This document shows, in pieces, positions 15,473 to 26,020 of a stretch of 64,000 bases of DNA. This DNA comes from Actinomycetota bacterium (GTDB lineage: Bacteria > Actinomycetota > CADDZG01 > JAHWKV01 > JAOPZY01). Position 1 is the first letter of the stretch; each line of letters begins with the position of its first letter. Under the pieces are notes generated by a model. That model did no database searches, had not been told where the DNA came from, and saw nothing but the letters and a program-made list of their open reading frames with translations. A program made the position numbers and the translations under genes. Where the stretch lies: positions 62,001 to 126,000 of the forward strand of contig DASTWV010000043.1 in NCBI GenBank assembly GCA_035765775.1, given 5' to 3'.

Positions 15473-15495
15473 GTCCACCGGGAAGGAGGTGCCAG

Positions 15496-16145
15496 ATGGG
15501 TCTGGCGACCCTGGCTGGCAAGGAAGTGTCGACGAACCGGGAGGTGGTCGTTTCGCCGGACTGGCTGGAGGAGCGGCTGCACGATCCCGGCGTCCGGGTG
15601 GTGGAGGTGGATGCGAGCCCCCGGGCCTACAGCGAGGGCCACATCGAGGGGCGGTGCTGTGGAACATCCACCGCGACTTGAGGGAGCCGGACTACCAGCT
15701 CCGCGACGGCCGCATCCTGGACTGCTCCCGGTCGGCATGGCAGAGCGATGGCCGGCCGTGGAGCACCGAGGTGCCCGAGATCCCGGCGACGAGCGACCCG
15801 CAGTACCTGGGCGGACGGTTCTGGCCTTCAGGCGGGATGGAGGAGGGAGGTCGTGCCGGCCGCGTGCCCGGCGCCGTGCACCAGTCGATCGACGGGATCT
15901 ACGACGACCGGGGGGCATTCCGCCGCGCCCATGACCTCGCCCGCATCCTGAGCGGGGTGGACCTGGCGGACGACATTGACGTGATCACCTACTGCACTTT
16001 GGGCGGCCGGGCGGCGACGACCTGGTTCGTCCTCACCCACCTGCTCGATCGCCCCGGGGTCCGGGTCTACGACGGCTCGTGGGCCGAGCGGGGGCGGTTG
16101 GCAACCAAGCCAGCTGAGACTGGCACTGGAAGAAAGGAAACGGAG
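15496..16145 (+). pseudogene. Rhodanese-type sulfurtransferase, frameshifted and internally deleted
   Basis: The start ATG 15496 (RBS GGAAGGAGG) opens a two-domain sulfurtransferase: VSPDWLEERLHDPGVRVVEV and YSEGHIEG. At the G-run 15648-15651 one base appears to be missing. The original frame stops at 15681, while the next frame continues exactly where expected (AVLWNIHRDLREPDY). The rest keeps a catalytic loop YCTLGGRAATTWFVLTHLL and VRVYDGSW. Compared with family members, the part between GRILD and RSAWQSDGRP and the front of the second domain look shortened. There is no stop after the last domain: the frame runs into the cupin start at 16146. It could be a recent pseudogene, or the frameshift could be a sequencing error. 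Confidence 0.75.
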
Positions 16146-16508
16146 ATGGCAGGGCTGATCCGCAAGAGCCTCGACACCCCGGAGGAGACCCGGGCGTTCG
16201 AAGGCGGTTCCGGCCAGCTGCAGCTGGTCAACCTCGCCCAGGGACCGGTGGGCCGCGCCACGTTCCTCCCGGGATGGAAGTGGTCCGAGCACGTCAAGCC
16301 CATTGCCCACACCGACAGCTGCCAGGCGGCCCACATGGGCTACTTCGTGTCCGGGCGGATGAAGGTGGTCATGGACGATGGCGAGGAGATGGAGTACGGC
16401 CCCGGCGACTTCGCCGTCATGGCCCCGGGCCACGATGCCTGGATCGTGGGCGACGAGCCCTGCGTGGTGATCGACTGGCAGGGCTTCGCCGACTACGCCA
16501 GGCGCTGA
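16146..16508 (+). CDS. Cupin-domain protein
   Basis: This 120-residue single-domain cupin has GRATFLPGWKWSEHVKP, HMGYFVSGRMKVVMDDGEE and YGPGDFAVMAPGHDAWIVGD. The G(X)5HXH-like metal site is incomplete, because the first motif has H only in EHVKP. The start ATG 16146 has AGAAAGGAAACGG upstream. The upstream sulfurtransferase remnant is in the same frame with no stop, so a fused product is formally possible. Substrate unknown. Confidence 0.85.
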   Translation: MAGLIRKSLDTPEETRAFEGGSGQLQLVNLAQGPVGRATFLPGWKWSEHVKPIAHTDSCQAAHMGYFVSGRMKVVMDDGEEMEYGPGDFAVMAPGHDAWIVGDEPCVVIDWQGFADYARR

Positions 16509-17039: not shown

Positions 17040-20009
17040 GTGGGGGCCACGATCACCCGGGCACCATTCGCTGGCCGGGACCAGGCGTTGGGGCTGCTGG
17101 AAGCAGCCCTGGGCTCCCTGGCTGGCGAGGGTCAGGCAACCGCACTGATCGGTGGCGAGGCGGGGATCGGCAAGACCCGCCTCGCCGACGAGGTGTGCGC
17201 CCGGGCACGCGACCGGGGATTCCTTGTCGCCCGCGGCTCCTGCTCGCCCGTAGGGGGGCGGAGGCAGCCGTTCGGCCCGGTGGTGGGGATGCTCCGGGAG
17301 CTCGAAGCCGAGGCAGCTGACCTCGGCGTGACCCGCCCCCTGGAGCCCCTGGGGCATGGACTCGGTCTCGTGGCCTGGGGACCGGTCGAGTCGAACGGCG
17401 ACCCGTTCGCCCCGCTGGCCGGCAAGATGGCCAAGACGACCCTGTTCGACCACGTGCGTACCGCCCTCGCCGGAGTGGCCGGCCGGTGCCCGGTGGTTTT
17501 GGTGCTCGAGGACCTCCACTGGGCGGACAGCTCCTCGATCGAACTCATCGACTTCCTGGCCCGCAGTCTGCGTGCGGCGCCGGTGCTGCTGATCGGCACC
17601 TACCGGGAGGACGAGCTGGAGGCGGATCACCCTTTGCGCCCGGTACTGGTCGAGCTCGGCCGCCAGCACCGGGTGTCGAGGCTGCACCTCGAAGGGCTCG
17701 GCGAGGAGGCCATTACCAGCTTGATCGCCGGTGTGCTGGGGGTGGCACCGGCCCCTGAGCGCGCGAAGGCAGTCTTCGCCCGGAGCGCGGGCAATCCCTT
17801 CTTCGCCGAGGAGATCGCCCGGGCCGGAGACCTGCCGGGGGTGCCCAAGCAGATCAACGAGCTGATCCTGCTCCGGGTCGGGCGCATGTCGCCCGAGGCG
17901 CAGCAGGTGCTCCGGCTCCTGGCAACCATCGGTGATGCGATCGACCACGATCTGGCGTCGGCCGCCTGCCAGGCGGCGGGGTTGGCTCTGGACCGTGCCT
18001 TGAAGGAAGCCGTGGCGCGCCGGATGGTCGTGGTCGATCAGGGGCGCTACCGCTTTCGGCACCCGCTGGTCCGGGAGGCAATCTCCGGATCCCTGCTGCC
18101 GGGGGAGTCGCAGCGGGTGCACCGGCTGGTGGCGGAATGCCTTGCTCGGACCGGCGGCGAGGCAAGGGAGCTGGCTCAGCGAGCCGCGCAGCTGGCCGAG
18201 CACTGGTGGGCGGCGGCCTCCTGGCCCGAGGCGCTGAACGCCTCGGTGGCGGCGGCCTGGGCTGCCGGAGCGGTGTTCGCGTTTAGCGAGGGGCTCGGCC
18301 ACCTGGAGCGGGCTTTGTCGGTGTGGGAGAGGGTGCCGGACGCCGCGGCCATCGCGGGCATGGACCATGCCACGCTGCTCGGCCTCGCAGCCGACGCGGC
18401 GTATTTCGCCTCGAGCAGCCCGCGCGGCGCTGAGCTCGCCCGGGCGGCGGCCGAGAAGATCGATGGGGTCCGGGAGCCGGGCCGGGCGGCCCTGGGCTGG
18501 GCGAAGGTCGGGCGCAACTGCTTCCCGATCAACCTGGACGCCTCGGCCCGGGCCTTCGATCGGGCGCTGTCGTTCCTGCCGGCGGGCACCCCCTCAGCCG
18601 AACGCGCCCGGGTCCTGGCCGAGAAGGCAGCCGCCCTCGCCTGCCTGTCGCGGTTCGCCGAAGGCGAGGCTACGGCCCGGCAAGCCATTTCTGAGGCCAC
18701 CGCTGTGGGCGCACGCGCGGAGGAGGGCCACGCCCTCGTGACCCTCGGGTCCTGCAGCACTTCCCTCGGCCGGCTCGCGGAGGGGGTCCGCTGGACCCAG
18801 GAGGGGGTGGCGATCGTCGAGGAACAGGCGCTGGCCAACGACCTGAACTATGGCTATACCTCCTTGAGCTATGCCCTGTTCGCGGCCGGGCGGATGGAGG
18901 AGGCGGCGGCCGTCACCCTGGACGCCATGGCGGTGGGCGAGGAGCTGTGCGGCATCCGCCTCGAAGGCGCCGCGCTGAACAGCATCGAGGCACTCCTGCA
19001 GGTCGGCCGCTGGGAGGAAGCGGAGGCGATGCTGGCTGAGCGGGGCCACGTCCAGGGGCCCTGCGGCTACGGCTGGTTCGAGCTGGTGAGCGCGATGGCG
19101 GCGCTGCGCCGGGGACGCTACGTGGATGCGAAGCGCGGGCTGGTTGCCGCCGACCGCTGGACCGCCGTCCAGGACGACGTCCAGATCCGGGGCTGGTACT
19201 ACCGCCTTGTTGCCGAACTTGCCCTGGACGAGAACCGGTGGGCCGAGGCCTTCGACCCGCTCGACCGGGCGCTCGACCTAGGGGCCTCCTCCGAGGACGA
19301 GGTCAACCGGCCGGAGATGCATGCGCTGGCGGCACGGGCCATCGCCGACCAACACGGGGCCACGCCGCGCCGCCCGGGCTGGGAGAACCGGCTGGAGAAG
19401 GCCCGGGCCGCCGCCAATGGGCACACCACCGAGTCCGACCGGCTGGTCCGGGCGCCGCTGGCGCGCGGCGGCCAGATCCTGCCGATGCCGTGGGCGTTCG
19501 CCCTCACCTGCCAGGCCGAGGAATCCCGCCTGCACGGCAACGATGCCGCTCCCTGGGAGGCGGCGGCGCGTGCCTGGGACGCGCTTCCCTGCCCGTACCA
19601 GGCAACGTACTGCCGGTGGCGGCAGGCCGAGGCGCTCCTCGCCCATCCGGGGGGGCGGGGTCCGGCAGCCGAGGTCCTCGCCCTGGCCTGGCAGACCGCC
19701 CGCCACCTAGGGGCCGAGGGCCTCGCCGCACGGATCCAGCTCCTTGCCCGCCGGGCCCGGCTGGTGTTACCGAAGGCCGCCGACCCGGCGGAAGGGCACT
19801 CGGTCGCCAGCGACCTGGGCCTCACCGCCCGGGAGGTCGAAGTCCTTGAGCTGCTGGCCGGCGGTGCGACTGATGCCACCATCGCCGAGCGGCTGTTCAT
19901 CAGCAAGAAGACGGCGAGCGTCCACGTCTCGAACGTGCTGCGCAAGCTGTGCGTGTCCAGCCGTTACGAGGCGGCAGCCGTCGGTCAGCAGGCGGGTCTG
20001 GGGGCCTGA
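17040..20009 (+). CDS. Large ATP-binding LuxR-family regulator (LAL)
   Basis: This 989-residue regulator has an N-terminal AAA/STAND ATPase with Walker A GGEAGIGKTRL (39-49) and Walker B LVLEDLHWAD (about 155-164). A long alpha-helical TPR-like middle (about 400-880) follows. The C-terminal LuxR helix-turn-helix (about 925-985) has LTAREVEVLELLAGGATDAT, ISKKTASVHVSNVLRKL. The GTG start has no obvious ribosome binding site. LALs are usually pathway activators triggered by a ligand. The target cannot be inferred, though the copper/cobalt operon converges immediately downstream. Confidence 0.92.
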   Translation: MGATITRAPFAGRDQALGLLEAALGSLAGEGQATALIGGEAGIGKTRLADEVCARARDRGFLVARGSCSPVGGRRQPFGPVVGMLRELEAEAADLGVTRPLEPLGHGLGLVAWGPVESNGDPFAPLAGKMAKTTLFDHVRTALAGVAGRCPVVLVLEDLHWADSSSIELIDFLARSLRAAPVLLIGTYREDELEADHPLRPVLVELGRQHRVSRLHLEGLGEEAITSLIAGVLGVAPAPERAKAVFARSAGNPFFAEEIARAGDLPGVPKQINELILLRVGRMSPEAQQVLRLLATIGDAIDHDLASAACQAAGLALDRALKEAVARRMVVVDQGRYRFRHPLVREAISGSLLPGESQRVHRLVAECLARTGGEARELAQRAAQLAEHWWAAASWPEALNASVAAAWAAGAVFAFSEGLGHLERALSVWERVPDAAAIAGMDHATLLGLAADAAYFASSSPRGAELARAAAEKIDGVREPGRAALGWAKVGRNCFPINLDASARAFDRALSFLPAGTPSAERARVLAEKAAALACLSRFAEGEATARQAISEATAVGARAEEGHALVTLGSCSTSLGRLAEGVRWTQEGVAIVEEQALANDLNYGYTSLSYALFAAGRMEEAAAVTLDAMAVGEELCGIRLEGAALNSIEALLQVGRWEEAEAMLAERGHVQGPCGYGWFELVSAMAALRRGRYVDAKRGLVAADRWTAVQDDVQIRGWYYRLVAELALDENRWAEAFDPLDRALDLGASSEDEVNRPEMHALAARAIADQHGATPRRPGWENRLEKARAAANGHTTESDRLVRAPLARGGQILPMPWAFALTCQAEESRLHGNDAAPWEAAARAWDALPCPYQATYCRWRQAEALLAHPGGRGPAAEVLALAWQTARHLGAEGLAARIQLLARRARLVLPKAADPAEGHSVASDLGLTAREVEVLELLAGGATDATIAERLFISKKTASVHVSNVLRKLCVSSRYEAAAVGQQAGLGA

Positions 20010-20024
20010 CCGGAGCCGACTTCT

Positions 20025-22754
20025 CTACTGGACGATCACCGTCGCCCGCATGCCCTGGGCGTAGTGCCCCGGCTGGTGGCAGCCGATCAGCAGCGTGCCC
20101 CGGTGGGCGAAGGTGTAGTCCAGGGTCGCGGTTCTGCCCGGGGCGACGTCCACGACCGGCAGGTCCATCCCGGCCATCGAGTCTCCGTGTGTGCGCATCA
20201 GGCGGTCGTGGGCGGCCTGGGCGGCGGTGTCGCCGATCAGCGCCTCGTGGGTCTGGCCGCTGGCGTTGTGGAAGACGAAGCGCACCCGCTGACCCTCGGA
20301 GACCGTGAAGGCGTTGGGGGCGAAGGCGTAGTCGCTCATCGTCACCCGGAAGGTCTGGCTGACCGGCGGGGGGCGGCGGAGCCAGGCGGTCACCCCGGCG
20401 ACGGTACCGAACAGCACCACGGGCGCCAGCCAGGCCGCCACCACCCGGCGGCGCAGGGCCCGGCGGGCCGCCGCCGGCGGCTTCATGCGGGTCCCCCGGT
20501 CGAAGCCCGACCCGCCGAAGCTGGCCAGCCGCAGGCTGTTGGCCACCACCGAGACGCTGGAGAGACCCATTGCCGCCCCCGCCACCACCGGGTTCAGCAG
20601 GCCGAACGCCGCCAGGGGCAGGGCCGCCAGGTTGTAGCCGAACGCCCAGCCCAGGTTCTGCAGGATGGTGGCGTAGGTCCGCCGGGCGAGCTGCAGGGCC
20701 ACCGCAACCCCCCGGAGGTCGGGCGACAGCAGCGTGATGTCAGAGGCCTCGATGGCCACGTCGGTACCCGTCCCGATGGCGATGCCCAGGTCGGCCTGGA
20801 CCAGGGCGGGGGCGTCGTTGACCCCGTCGCCCACCATGGCCACCGTCCGGCCCTCGGCCTGCAGCCGGGCGATCTCGGCCACCTTGCCGGAAGGCAGGAC
20901 CTCAGCGAGGACCCGGTCGATCCCGGCCTGGCCGGCCACCGCTCGGGCGGTGCGGGCGTTGTCGCCGGTCACCATTACCACCTGCATCCCGGTGGCCTGG
21001 AGGGCGGCCACCGCCTGGGCGGCGCTGGGCTTCAGGGTGTCCGAGACCGCGATGGCTCCCCGGGCGGCCCCCTCCCAGCCGGCGAGCACGACCGTACGCC
21101 CCAGGGCCTCCTGGTCGGCCACCGCGGTCGCCAGCCCGGCGGGGATCGCCATGCCGTGCTCCTCGATCAGCCCCGGGCGGCCGACGACCACCAGGCGCCC
21201 GGCCACCGAGGCCCGCACCCCCCGGCCGGGAACCGCCTCGAAGCCGGACACCCCTGCGACGGGCAACGCCCCGGGTTCGTCGGCCGCCATCGCCGCCAGC
21301 GCCCGGCCCACGGGGTGCTCGGAGCCCGCTTCGGCGGCGGCCACCAGCCGGCGGAGCTCGGCCGCATCCACCCCCGGGGCGGGCACGACGTCGGCCACGA
21401 CGACGTTGCCGGTGGTGAGCGTCCCGGTCTTGTCCACCACGACGGTGTCCACCACCCGGGAGCGCTCCAGGATGTCGCCCCCCTTGATGAGCACGCCGGA
21501 GTTGGCCCCCCGGCCGGTACCGACCATGATTGCCATGGGGGTCGCCAGGCCCAGGGCGCACGGGCAGGCCACGATGAGGACGGCGACCGCGGCGAGCAGG
21601 CCGGTGCCCGGCTCCCCCGCCAGCCACCACCCGGCGAAGGTCACCGCCGCCAGCACCAGCACCACCGGCACGAAGATGCCCGCGGCCCGGTCGGCGAGGC
21701 GCTGGATGGGAGCCTTGGCGTTCTGCGCCTGCTCGACGAGGCGCACCATGCCCGCCAGGGCGGTGCCCGCCCCCACCGCGGTCGCCCGGATGGTCAGCAC
21801 GCCCTGCTGGTTGACGGTGGCACCGGCGACCGGGTCGCCGGGGGACTTGTCCACCGGCAGCGACTCGCCGGTCAGCATGGACTCGTCCACCGAGGAGACG
21901 CCCTCGACGACCACCCCGTCCACCGGCACCTTCTCGCCCGGCCGGATCCGGAGCAGGTCGCCCACCGAGACCGCCTCGACGGACACGGCGTGCTCCTGCC
22001 CGTCGGCAGCCACCAGGGTGGCCTCCTTGGCCCCCAGCTCCACCAGCGCCCGCACGGCCTGCGAGGCCCGCCCCCGGCCCCGGGCCTCCAGGTAGCGGCC
22101 CAGCAGCAGGAAGGCGATGATCAGGGCCGCCTCGTCGTAGTGCAGGTGGCCGCCCAGGGCGTCGCCCGCGCCCAGCAACTCGAAGGTGGAGAAGGCGAAG
22201 GCGGCCAGCGTGCCGAGAGCCACCAGGGTGTCCATGTTGGCGCTGAAGGTGCGCGCCCGGACAGCCGCCGAGCGCAGGAACGGCCAGCCGGCCCAGAACT
22301 CCACCGGCGTGGCCAGGAGCGCGGAGGCCCAGCGGGCCCCGCTGGCATGGGGCCACCCCATCGACAGCACCAGGGTGGCAAGAGCGAGCGGCGCCGCCAC
22401 CGCCAGCCGGCGCAGCCACATCGCCCGCTCGGGGTCCCGCTGCTTGGCCCCGGACAGGGGGGCCGACATCGCCGTGAGGTGGTAGCCCACCCGATCGATG
22501 GCGGCCACGAGGTCGGTGGGCGCCGCCGGGGCCTCGGCGCTCAGCTCGATGGTGGCCCGTCCGGTGGCGAAGTTGACCCCGGCCGCCACGACGCCGCTCT
22601 GGCGGCGCAGCGTGCGCTCCACCCGGGCGGCGCACGACCCGCAGGTCATCCCTTCGACGTCGAAGACGAGGACGTCCCGGGGCGCGCCGACGGCCGGGGG
22701 CGCCGCCTCCGCGGCGGCGAGCTCCCCGAGGCTAGGGCTTCGGCGCTCCGGCAT
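20025..22754 (-). CDS. copA: Copper-exporting P1B-type ATPase fused to a C-terminal cupredoxin domain
   Basis: This 909-residue Cu+ export ATPase has an N-terminal HMA domain with GMTCGSC (35-41), eight predicted helices, and CPC in [12 protein letters not shown] (about 398). It also has the phosphorylation motif DKTGTLT, a nucleotide-domain HP (GSEHPVGRA) and [10 protein letters not shown]. After the normal end (NSLRL, about 770) come a basic linker and an extra helix ([18 protein letters not shown]). A roughly 105-residue cupredoxin domain follows, with type-1 copper ligands: His in GQTHEALIG and Cys-x4-His-x4-Met in [12 protein letters not shown]. By topology this domain would face outside. 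It is 22 nt downstream of csoR and is probably CsoR-controlled. Confidence 0.93.
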
Positions 22755-22776: not shown

Positions 22777-23133
22777 TTAGGGCTCGTCCGGACCGGCGCC
22801 CAGGGGGGCCGGCTCGGAGGTGGGCTGAGGGGCCGGCTCGGAGGCGGGCCCGGAGGTGGGCCCGGTGGTCACCCGGTCGAAGCGCATGGCCTCCATGAGC
22901 TCCTCGACGATCTCCTCGGTGCGCCCCGCCACCATGGCGGCGGCGACGCAGGTCTCGAGGTGGTTGCGCAGCACCAGGCGGCTGGCCCGCTCGAGCTGGC
23001 CCTGGACCGCCGAGAGCTGCTTCATGACGTCGGGGCAGTAGGCATCGTCCTCGACCATGCGCAGGACGGCGTCCAGATGGCCCCGGGCACTGCGCAGGCG
23101 GTTGACCACGGACCGCTGGTAGGACTCTTTCAT
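22777..23133 (-). CDS. csoR: CsoR-type copper-sensing repressor
   Basis: This 118-residue all-helical repressor has the CsoR Cu(I) ligand set Cys33, His58 and Cys62 ([17 protein letters not shown]). A Pro/Glu-rich tail (about 90-118) is an extension. ATG 23133 overlaps the cbiO stop (ATGA), so translation is coupled to the cobalt transporter ATPase. A palindrome TACCCCA-N7-TGGGGTA lies 11 nt upstream and suggests autoregulation. Confidence 0.93.
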
Positions 23134-23984
23134 GGCTGCAGTATACCCCACCCCCCCTGGGGTAGGGCTAGGGGTGGGACGGGGCCTCCGTGGTGGGCGT
23201 GGTCGTGGTGGTGGGTGTGCACCTCGGCGCCGTGGGAGTGGCTGTGCTCGTGGATCAGGTTGACCGCCAGCAGCAGGTCCCGGTCGCCCAGGATCTCCCC
23301 GGGCGGCCCCTCGGCCACGATGCGGTGCTCCTCGGAGAACACCACGCACCGGTCGGCGAGGGCATGGAGGCTCTCCAGGTCGTGGGTGGCCAGCACGATG
23401 GTCTTGCCCGCCTGGTTCAACTCCACGATGAGGTCCATGAGCCACTGCTGGGTGCGGGGGTCGAGCGCGGCGGTGGGTTCGTCGAAGAGCAGCACGGCGG
23501 GGTTCATGACCAGCACCGAGGCGATGGCCACCCGCTTCTTCTGGCCTCCGGAGAGCTGGTAGGGAGCCCGGTCGGCGATCCCGGCGAGGTCGAGCATCGC
23601 CAACGTGTCGTCCACCCGGGCCTCGACCTCCGCCGGGGGGAGGCCCATGTTCAGCGGGCCGAAGGCGATCTCCTCCCGGACCGTGGGCGAGAACACCTGG
23701 GCGTCGGAGTTCTGGAAGATGAACCCCACCCGGCCCCGGAAGGCCCGGTTGAACTGCTCGTCCTCCAGGGCCTCCTCGGTGACCGGGGCGCCGAAGGCCC
23801 GGTACGCCCCGGAGTCCGGGAAGATCAACCCGTCCAGGACCTTGAGCAGGGTGGACTTGCCGCACCCGTTGGCCCCGAGGAGGGCCACCTTCTCGCCCGG
23901 TTCAATGCCGAGGGTGACACCGTCCAGGGCGGTGAACCGGCCGAGGTAGGCGTAGTGGAGGTCGCGTACTGCGAGCAGCGTCAC
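23130..23984 (-). CDS. cbiO: Cobalt/nickel ECF transporter ATPase CbiO
   Basis: This 284-residue ABC ATPase has Walker A GANGCGKSTL (about 36-45), a Q-loop IFQNSDAQVF, signature LSGGQKKRVAIA, Walker B VLLFDEPTAALD and an H-loop THDLES. The C-terminal tail is rich in His (HEHSHSHGAEVHTHHHDHAHH), a probable metal-binding or metal-storage segment. Start GTG 23984 is 5 nt after the stop of cbiMQ. The stop overlaps csoR. Confidence 0.92.
   Translation of the reverse strand: MTLLAVRDLHYAYLGRFTALDGVTLGIEPGEKVALLGANGCGKSTLLKVLDGLIFPDSGAYRAFGAPVTEEALEDEQFNRAFRGRVGFIFQNSDAQVFSPTVREEIAFGPLNMGLPPAEVEARVDDTLAMLDLAGIADRAPYQLSGGQKKRVAIASVLVMNPAVLLFDEPTAALDPRTQQWLMDLIVELNQAGKTIVLATHDLESLHALADRCVVFSEEHRIVAEGPPGEILGDRDLLLAVNLIHEHSHSHGAEVHTHHHDHAHHGGPVPPLALPQGGWGILQP
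23144..23164. promoter_or_regulatory. CsoR-like operator inside the 3' end of cbiO
   Basis: The perfect inverted repeat TACCCCA-C7-TGGGGTA matches the general form of CsoR boxes (GC-rich arms with TA ends). It lies just upstream of csoR-copA and overlaps codons for the last residues of CbiO. Binding would both repress an internal promoter and sit on the transcript of cbiO. Confidence 0.6.
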
Positions 23985-23989
23985 GCCCG

Positions 23990-26020
23990 TTAGCGCCCGA
24001 GTGCCCGGTCGAGGCCGAGGACCGCCGCCATGGTCACGAGGCAGGCGCCCATCCAGCACCACTCCCGGGCGGCCAGGCGGGAGCGCTGCAGCGTCCGGGT
24101 GTGGCCGGTGTAGCCCCGGCTGACCATCGCCTGGTAGACCTCCTCGGACAGGGACTGGGCCTTGCCGAAGAGCGCCCCCCCGGTGGCGGCGACGAAGGCC
24201 CGGCCCGCCCGGACGTCGGACTCGGCCCCCACCGTGCGGCTGCGCCGGGCGGTGTACATGTCCTCGACCGAGCCCAGCAGGTGGAAGACGTAGCGGTAGG
24301 ACATCCCGATGACCTGGACGAACATCGGCGGCACCAGCAGTGCCCGGAGGGCGGCCATGAGCTTGGCCCACGGCGTGGTGAGGGTCAGCAGGACCACCAG
24401 CGAGATCGACACCGCCACCCGGGCAACGATGCGGGCGGCGGTCTGCAGCCCCGGGGCGGTGACGCCGATCTGGTGGCCGAACCACCACGACCCGAGGGGC
24501 ACGACGATGTGGCCCTTCGTGATGATGTTCAGCGTTGCCGGGGCCACCACCACCCCGGTGAAGACCGGGATGAACAGCCAGACCCGCTTGACGAAGAACC
24601 CGATGCTGATCCGGGAGGCGGCCGCCGCGCCGAGAGCCAGGGCGTAGAGCCCGAGCAGGACCCAGGTGGAGTGCACCAGGCCGGCCACCACCAGCAGGCC
24701 GAGGAGGGTGACCAGCTTCACCCGGGCGTCCAGGCGTTGCAGGAGGCCGTCCCGGCCGGCCACCTCATCGCCGAAGAGGGCGGAGCGGAGCACGCCGGAG
24801 GCCCCCCGGAGCGTCTTCTCGACGAAGCTGCCCTTGGAGCGGGTCCCGATGCACCCGCACGGGCACAGGCCCACCTCGCCCCGGAGGAGCCAGGCCGGGG
24901 TCGTGGAGGACGCCGCCCGGGGCACTGGGAGGGACGCGGGGATGGATGCGGGGATGGATGCCCTCGGCTCCCGGCGGCGGAGGGCCCGGAGCGCCCGGAG
25001 CGCCCCGTAGCCGGCGGCCACCGCCGCTCCGATGGCGACGACGCCGGCCAGGGCGGACACCAGGTACCCCAGGGTCGGGTGGGCGGCGTGGGAATAGTCG
25101 TAGCCGCTGAAGAGGGCGTGGTGCCAGAACCCGGTGTAGCGGGCCAGGCCCGAGGGGAGCGCCGAGAGGTGGGCCTTGGCCAGGAACCCGGCGGTGTGGG
25201 GATTGTCCTCGCCGAATGCGCCGCCGGGGGCGAGGAGGCCGAGCGGGGACAGGGCCAGCATCGCCCCAAGGGGGATCAACGCATGCCGCCAGCGCAGGCG
25301 GCGGGCGAAGGCCTCCTCGGGCACGCCGGCGGCGGCGTCCGGGTGGTTGAGGCGCAGCAGCGGCAGATTCGCCCGCTGCAGGTAGGCGATCACCCCGAAG
25401 GTGAGGGCGAACTCCACCCCACCCGCCACGGTGAGATGGGCGAGCATCATGGCCGGGATCGTCTGGGCGAGGTGGTAGGGCGAGTAGAGCGGCGACCCCC
25501 CGGCGGTGTGGAAGAGCACGGGCTGCAGGCCCAGCTCGACGGAGGCGCACAGAGCCGCCGCCGAGATGCCCAGGTAGCCCCCGAGGGCGGCGGCGAACGC
25601 CCGGCGGGGCGAGGTCAGGCTGGCGCCCCGGCTGAGCGGCCGGTAGACGAGGTAGTAGCCCACCAGGGTCATGACGACGGCCATGTTGAAGGCGTTGACC
25701 GGGTAGGCCAGCACGCCGCCGTCGCCGAAGAAGAGGGCCTGGATGGCCAGGGCGGTGGCCACCGCGATGATGGCCGCCTCGGGCCCGAGAATCACCGCCA
25801 CCAGGACGGTGCCCACGGCATGCGCCGTCGTCCCGTCCGGGATCGGGACGTTGAACATCATCACGAGGAAGCAGAACGCCGCCCCGATGGCCAGCAGCGG
25901 CACCGACCGGCTCTTGACGACCCGCCGCACCCCCCGGCCTGCCCGGTAGAAGACCGGGAGCATGGCCGCCCCGCCGACCGCGCAGGTCTCGGGGCTCAGG
26001 TAGCCGTCGGGGATGTGCAT
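23990..26020 (-). CDS. cbiMQ: Fused CbiM-CbiQ cobalt/nickel ECF transporter membrane component
   Basis: This 676-residue membrane protein joins the substrate-binding subunit CbiM (1 to about 230) to a CbiN/PDGF-like middle segment (about 230-345) and the T component CbiQ (about 410-676). CbiM starts with MHIPDGYLSPETC (His and N-terminal metal site). The middle includes GGAFGEDNPHTAG and GYDYSHAAHPTLGYL. CbiQ contains LDARVKLV and the coupling segment SRGYTGHTRTL. The junction carries a Cys-rich motif LCPCGCIGTRSKGSFVEKTL. Specificity (Co or Ni) cannot be read from the sequence. Weak ribosome binding site. Confidence 0.9.
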   Translation of the reverse strand: MHIPDGYLSPETCAVGGAAMLPVFYRAGRGVRRVVKSRSVPLLAIGAAFCFLVMMFNVPIPDGTTAHAVGTVLVAVILGPEAAIIAVATALAIQALFFGDGGVLAYPVNAFNMAVVMTLVGYYLVYRPLSRGASLTSPRRAFAAALGGYLGISAAALCASVELGLQPVLFHTAGGSPLYSPYHLAQTIPAMMLAHLTVAGGVEFALTFGVIAYLQRANLPLLRLNHPDAAAGVPEEAFARRLRWRHALIPLGAMLALSPLGLLAPGGAFGEDNPHTAGFLAKAHLSALPSGLARYTGFWHHALFSGYDYSHAAHPTLGYLVSALAGVVAIGAAVAAGYGALRALRALRRREPRASIPASIPASLPVPRAASSTTPAWLLRGEVGLCPCGCIGTRSKGSFVEKTLRGASGVLRSALFGDEVAGRDGLLQRLDARVKLVTLLGLLVVAGLVHSTWVLLGLYALALGAAAASRISIGFFVKRVWLFIPVFTGVVVAPATLNIITKGHIVVPLGSWWFGHQIGVTAPGLQTAARIVARVAVSISLVVLLTLTTPWAKLMAALRALLVPPMFVQVIGMSYRYVFHLLGSVEDMYTARRSRTVGAESDVRAGRAFVAATGGALFGKAQSLSEEVYQAMVSRGYTGHTRTLQRSRLAAREWCWMGACLVTMAAVLGLDRALGR

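Follow-up and report, generated by a model that had tools for sequence, protein, structure and literature searches.

The recipient that takes over Cu+ outside the cell after its export by CopA is poorly known, and the mechanism by which the cupredoxin CopI protects against copper is still being worked out. In Rubrivivax, copI was found clustered with copA, and a mutant lacking copI was more sensitive to copper than one lacking CopA (PMC7558416). A copA gene and a cupredoxin gene also cluster together in gammaproteobacteria (PMC8478169). Moreover, CopI has an internal His/Met-rich segment, which is reported to be conserved and crucial for resistance, and an N-terminal His-rich site that differs between species (PMC13308877). 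Here, a gene of an uncultured actinobacterium is described in which a CopA-type ATPase and a CopI-like cupredoxin share a single reading frame. The gene lies in a stretch of 64,000 nucleotides, the whole of which is referred to as the window.

Architecture of the fusion gene

The copA::copI fusion gene occupies positions 20025..22754 on the minus strand of the window, as do all its parts given below, and encodes 909 amino acids in one unbroken frame with no internal stop. The Pfam domains found in this protein were HMA (residues 30-92), E1-E2_ATPase (242-418), Hydrolase (435-655) and Copper-bind (804-909). The N-terminal HMA domain (PF00403), delimited here as residues 27-92 (22479..22676), presents the motif GMTCGSC with Cys38 and Cys41, and is followed by the P1B-1 ATPase core with its eight transmembrane helices (residues 102-746; 20517..22451). 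This core was recognised by its motifs and by the TIGR01511 model for copper-translocating P-type ATPases, with a score of 554 bits against a cut-off of 397. In particular, the catalytic motifs DKTGT (441), TGE (295), HP (480) and GDGxND (642) were found, and the CopA signature was complete, comprising CPC (397-399) of helix 4, the YN pair (Y707-N708) of helix 5 and MxxSS (M729 with SS) of helix 6. Judged by these motifs, the ATPase part is a complete P1B-1 Cu+-ATPase (CopA), for which Cu+ transport is predicted.

NSLRL, the last CopA motif, is followed by a short linker and a basic stretch, and then by a ninth, hydrophobic helix and the cupredoxin domain. The initial annotation had read this order from the sequence as CopA, basic linker, extra helix and cupredoxin in one frame, which is borne out by the 909-residue open reading frame, the Pfam domains and an identical arrangement in a second locus, L004. 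It had also stated that ordinary CopA proteins end about 100-150 residues earlier; the tail is indeed longer, and that figure was slightly low, as 166 residues follow the NSLRL motif in the window protein and 164 in L004, compared with 3-25 in the other CopAs examined. The fused part spans about 20025-20515. Residues 747-756 (20487..20516) form a variable linker, 20% identical to that of L004, and the conserved fused unit starts (20486) at an in-frame methionine, Met757 (20484..20486), which aligns with a methionine of L004 and belongs to an ATGA whose TGA lies in the +1 frame.

The basic stretch and the ninth transmembrane helix (residues 760-792; 20379..20477) have no lipobox cysteine. The helix itself was placed at about residues 771-789, with a KD value of 2.0, seven Lys/Arg residues in the 15 positions preceding it and three after it, and the AlphaFold2 model also showed a helix at 760-792, the placement of the ninth helix being of low confidence (pLDDT 62-79). 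As there are eight canonical P1B helices plus one, with the positive residues on the inside, the cupredoxin domain probably faces outwards by topology rules, in agreement with the orientation predicted in the initial annotation. The window protein has five cysteines, all of them at metal sites, namely the two of the HMA CxxC, the two of CPC and the type-1 cysteine.

The cupredoxin domain resembles CopI

The C-terminal domain (residues 800-909; 20028..20357; Pfam Copper-bind 804-909) presents the full type-1 ligand set, with the pattern His836 (20249-20247) plus Cys892-x4-His897-x4-Met902 (20081-20079, 20066-20064 and 20051-20049, respectively), exactly as initially claimed. No loss of these ligands was observed in an alignment of 37 relatives, where the type-1 set was invariant and His849 nearly so. 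The domain was modelled by AlphaFold2 with 37 sequences as a cupredoxin fold with a mean pLDDT of 94, and the best fold matches in the PDB were auracyanins (6kol, 1qhq), followed by a Bacillus cupredoxin and AcoP. Auracyanins are photosynthetic electron carriers.

At the sequence level, the nearest curated family was CopI, with scores far under the cut-offs (68.5 vs. 280 for NF051440 and 34.2 vs. 200 for NF047895). Moreover, the domain has an internal His/Met-rich loop (20160..20213) that includes His849 and is of the same kind, and at the same place, as the segment of CopI with which it was compared (PMC13308877), R. gelatinosus CopI having AHAQEMRAMPDMQH. The N-terminal His-rich site of CopI has no counterpart in the fusion, with no histidine found between the helix and the domain. 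Since the scores are far under the curated cut-offs and the domain is fused to CopA instead of being a separate exported protein, it was named CopI-like and not CopI.

The fusion is genuine and, among the genomes sampled, confined to one family

The same continuous fused frame was found in a second genome (G001, with a sequence identical to L004, which comes from MAG RYN_267) of the same family and another genus. The two proteins shared 74% identity in the ATPase core, 57% in the cupredoxin domain and 20% over the ten positions that precede Met757, the domain evolving faster than the pump, and L004 keeps the ligands, the ninth helix and the frame. Furthermore, the G+C content at codon position 3 was 0.94-0.98 over the whole junction, so that no sign of a frame change was seen. 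A frameshift or stop between the ATPase and the domain was thus ruled out by the frame of L004 together with this even composition. In the cupredoxin domain, nonsynonymous divergence between the two sequences (0.28) was below synonymous divergence (0.38, the latter probably saturated), while in the linker (747-756) it was not and no selective constraint was seen, which indicates that the domain itself, and not merely an open frame, has been retained. The gene, carried by two genomes that are both draft assemblies, is a natural fusion of two known partners and not an assembly accident.

Regarding its distribution, the fusion was present in both genomes of the family (2/2) and in none of the 22 other genomes of the class. 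No other fusion appeared among 397 sampled Actinomycetota genomes, 74 of them with a CopI-like domain, nor, apart from L004, among 35 related loci from an 84,980-species collection, and no plasmid record covered 80% of the junction query. A CopA-cupredoxin fusion of this kind was not found in the open-access literature either; as far as the literature searched shows, the architecture is new and previously undescribed, its parts being known.

A second, unfused CopI-like cupredoxin occurs in the same genomes (L002/L069, on contig C59 of G000 at about 231329-231745, and L070), belonging to a different clade and carrying the motif ACHLPGHYAYGM; its relatives occur in further families of the class. 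An 843-aa frame at L002, in the same genome, was considered as a second fusion and rejected, being a spurious long frame before an ordinary CopI-like protein.

Separate copI-like genes and the origin of the fusion

A separate gene encodes the CopI-like protein in other members of the class and in Acidimicrobiia. Of the 22 other class genomes, 8 (G002, G003, G005, G008, G014, G016, G020 and G021) have this gene no more than about 2 kb from a P1B ATPase. The stop codon of copA shares bases with the start codon of copI in L005 (ATGA) and in L086 (TGATG), and the window retains ATGA at Met757, with its TGA one base outside the fused frame. This ATGA is probably a relic of separate genes, and the out-of-frame TGA fits an origin in which a small indel shifted the frame of two overlapping genes. 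Moreover, a lipobox-like motif, searched for with a simple pattern, was detected in 43 of 66 separate relatives and in neither of the two fusions, so the extra helix appears to have taken over anchoring from a lipid anchor.

A tree of the cupredoxins joined both fused domains in a clade (support 99/98), within a group to which the genes next to copA in L005, L007 and L009 also belong. In the ATPase tree only the window protein was placed, L004 having been removed by de-duplication, so that the pairing of both fusions rests on their identity and on the domain tree. A single fusion event in the family explains the data.

Some separate genes presented further variation. The one at L028 (692-1147), upstream of copA, encodes a CopI-like protein with a tandem duplication of the C-terminal ligand region (two CHQPGHYVGGM loops). 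At L014, L016 and L019, CopI-like genes adjoin CPH-type (CopB-like) P1B ATPases, pointing to a partnership wider than CopA.

Neighbouring genes

A gene for a CsoR-family metal-sensing repressor (22777..23166, minus strand; PF02583, 84.7 bits) lies directly upstream of the fusion gene, its best NCBIfam match being RicR with a score under the cut-off. As a CsoR-family gene also stands directly upstream and on the same strand in the second fusion genome (1919..2245 of L004), copper-induced expression is suggested.

On the other side, a large AAA plus LuxR-type regulator (17040-20009, plus strand) is convergent with the fusion gene and ends 15 bp away from it. Two further composite frames were observed in the surroundings. 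A 676-aa frame (23990-26020, minus strand) joins CbiM (residues ~1-330) and CbiQ (430-635) of a cobalt/nickel ECF transporter, being a second apparent gene fusion nearby, and is followed by CbiO (23130-23987). Furthermore, a 339-aa frame (15489-16508, plus strand) contains rhodanese and cupin domains, which may represent a fusion or an overreached start. No tRNA or Rfam matches were found in the window.

Proposed function and alternatives

The reading we favour, with a probability of about 0.7, is that a Cu+-exporting CopA has been joined in frame, through an extra helix, to the CopI-like cupredoxin that usually accompanies it as a genetic partner, and that the tethered domain captures the Cu+ released by the pump. 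CopA would pick up cytosolic Cu+ and release it outside, where the tethered domain would sit beside the exit; the cell presumably has no outer membrane that could keep a soluble protein close by. The His/Met-rich loop would be the first to bind the released Cu+, followed by the His-Cys-His-Met site, which may hold it or oxidise it to Cu2+, as proposed for CopI (PMC13308877), and the tether would keep one acceptor at each pump. We infer that the domain binds copper, receives it from the pump and oxidises it, and that it serves detoxification rather than delivery; the acceptor role is plausible by analogy with CopI and from gene linkage, as both the linkage described here and the copA-cupredoxin clusters of gammaproteobacteria (PMC8478169) suggest that CopA and CopI-like proteins act on a shared step. 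Delivery to another protein is no more likely than capture for detoxification.

The initial annotation had interpreted the protein as a self-contained export-and-delivery machine with a covalently attached acceptor. The covalent fusion stands and the acceptor is plausible; what that interpretation missed is the known CopI-like partner with its His/Met-rich loop, encoded by a neighbouring or overlapping gene in relatives. The protein is therefore better described as two joined partners than as a new machine.

A closely related possibility, rather unlikely in our judgement, is that the pump passes Cu+ directly, without release, to its own cupredoxin, where it would be oxidised to Cu2+, making export and neutralisation one coupled step. 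It is also unlikely that the fusion is a translational arrangement only, with the cupredoxin being freed by signal peptidase after the ninth helix, or made from the internal ATG at 20486, and acting as a free or separately anchored CopI. The in-frame methionine at the same point in both fusions, the ATGA relic, the resemblance of the basic stretch and helix to a signal sequence and the separate genes with overlapping stop and start in relatives would fit such a release. However, the ribosome-binding signal of the internal ATG is ordinary, being matched in strength at 15% of the in-frame sites of one gene and 29% of those of the other, no lipobox is present, and the frame is still fused despite divergence to 57% domain identity.

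A role of the domain in electron transfer, as an auracyanin- or AcoP-like cupredoxin that works with a respiratory partner and merely rides on CopA, seems quite improbable: the type-1 site is suitable, auracyanins are the top structural matches and AcoP is close behind, but the closest sequence family is CopI, the His/Met-rich loop is present, and the linkage in relatives is to copper ATPases. We consider it very improbable that the domain is an outside copper sensor regulating the pump by feedback on Cu+ release instead of an acceptor. Terminal metal-binding domains of P1B pumps are reported to be regulatory (PMC11970713), which would favour this reading, but those domains are cytosolic, and the CopI-like proteins that relatives encode separately are not covalently attached to the pump, which makes regulation unnecessary to explain conservation. 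Finally, although the assembly is a draft and the ATGA relic means that a single indel would split the genes, a merging of two genes by assembly or sequencing error is effectively excluded by the same frame in an independent genome from a different genus, unless both share the error, and by the even composition and the absent lipobox.

That the two are fused in nature argues strongly for CopA and CopI-like cupredoxins sharing one step, and the fusion offers a one-gene construct of fixed stoichiometry for measuring transfer from pump to acceptor. It also suggests that an acceptor may be held at the pump without an outer membrane in more than one way, by a lipid anchor in many relatives and by covalent fusion here.

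Comparison with known systems

Among known proteins, auracyanin provides the closest solved fold (6kol, 1qhq) and a similar ligand loop, and is not fused to a pump. The CopA and CupA proteins of Streptococcus pneumoniae are similar in that a cupredoxin fold is joined to a Cu+-ATPase; however, that domain is N-terminal, on the chaperone side and with a binuclear Cu+ site, while that of the window protein is C-terminal, predicted to face outwards and equipped with the type-1 set (PMC7558416). Moreover, the window protein has an N-terminal HMA domain where the S. pneumoniae type of CopA has its cytosolic cupredoxin. With ordinary CopA (TIGR01511; Legionella and Archaeoglobus structures) it shares the catalytic and copper-site motifs, the HMA domain and the eight helices, to which the fusion adds a ninth helix and a probable outside domain, with 166 residues after the last motif instead of 3-25. 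With CopI of Rubrivivax, Vibrio and Pseudomonas, which confers copper tolerance, it shares the His-Cys-His-Met site, the His/Met-rich segment and the linkage to copA, differing in being fused to CopA, apparently tethered to the membrane, devoid of the N-terminal His-rich site and far under the curated models.
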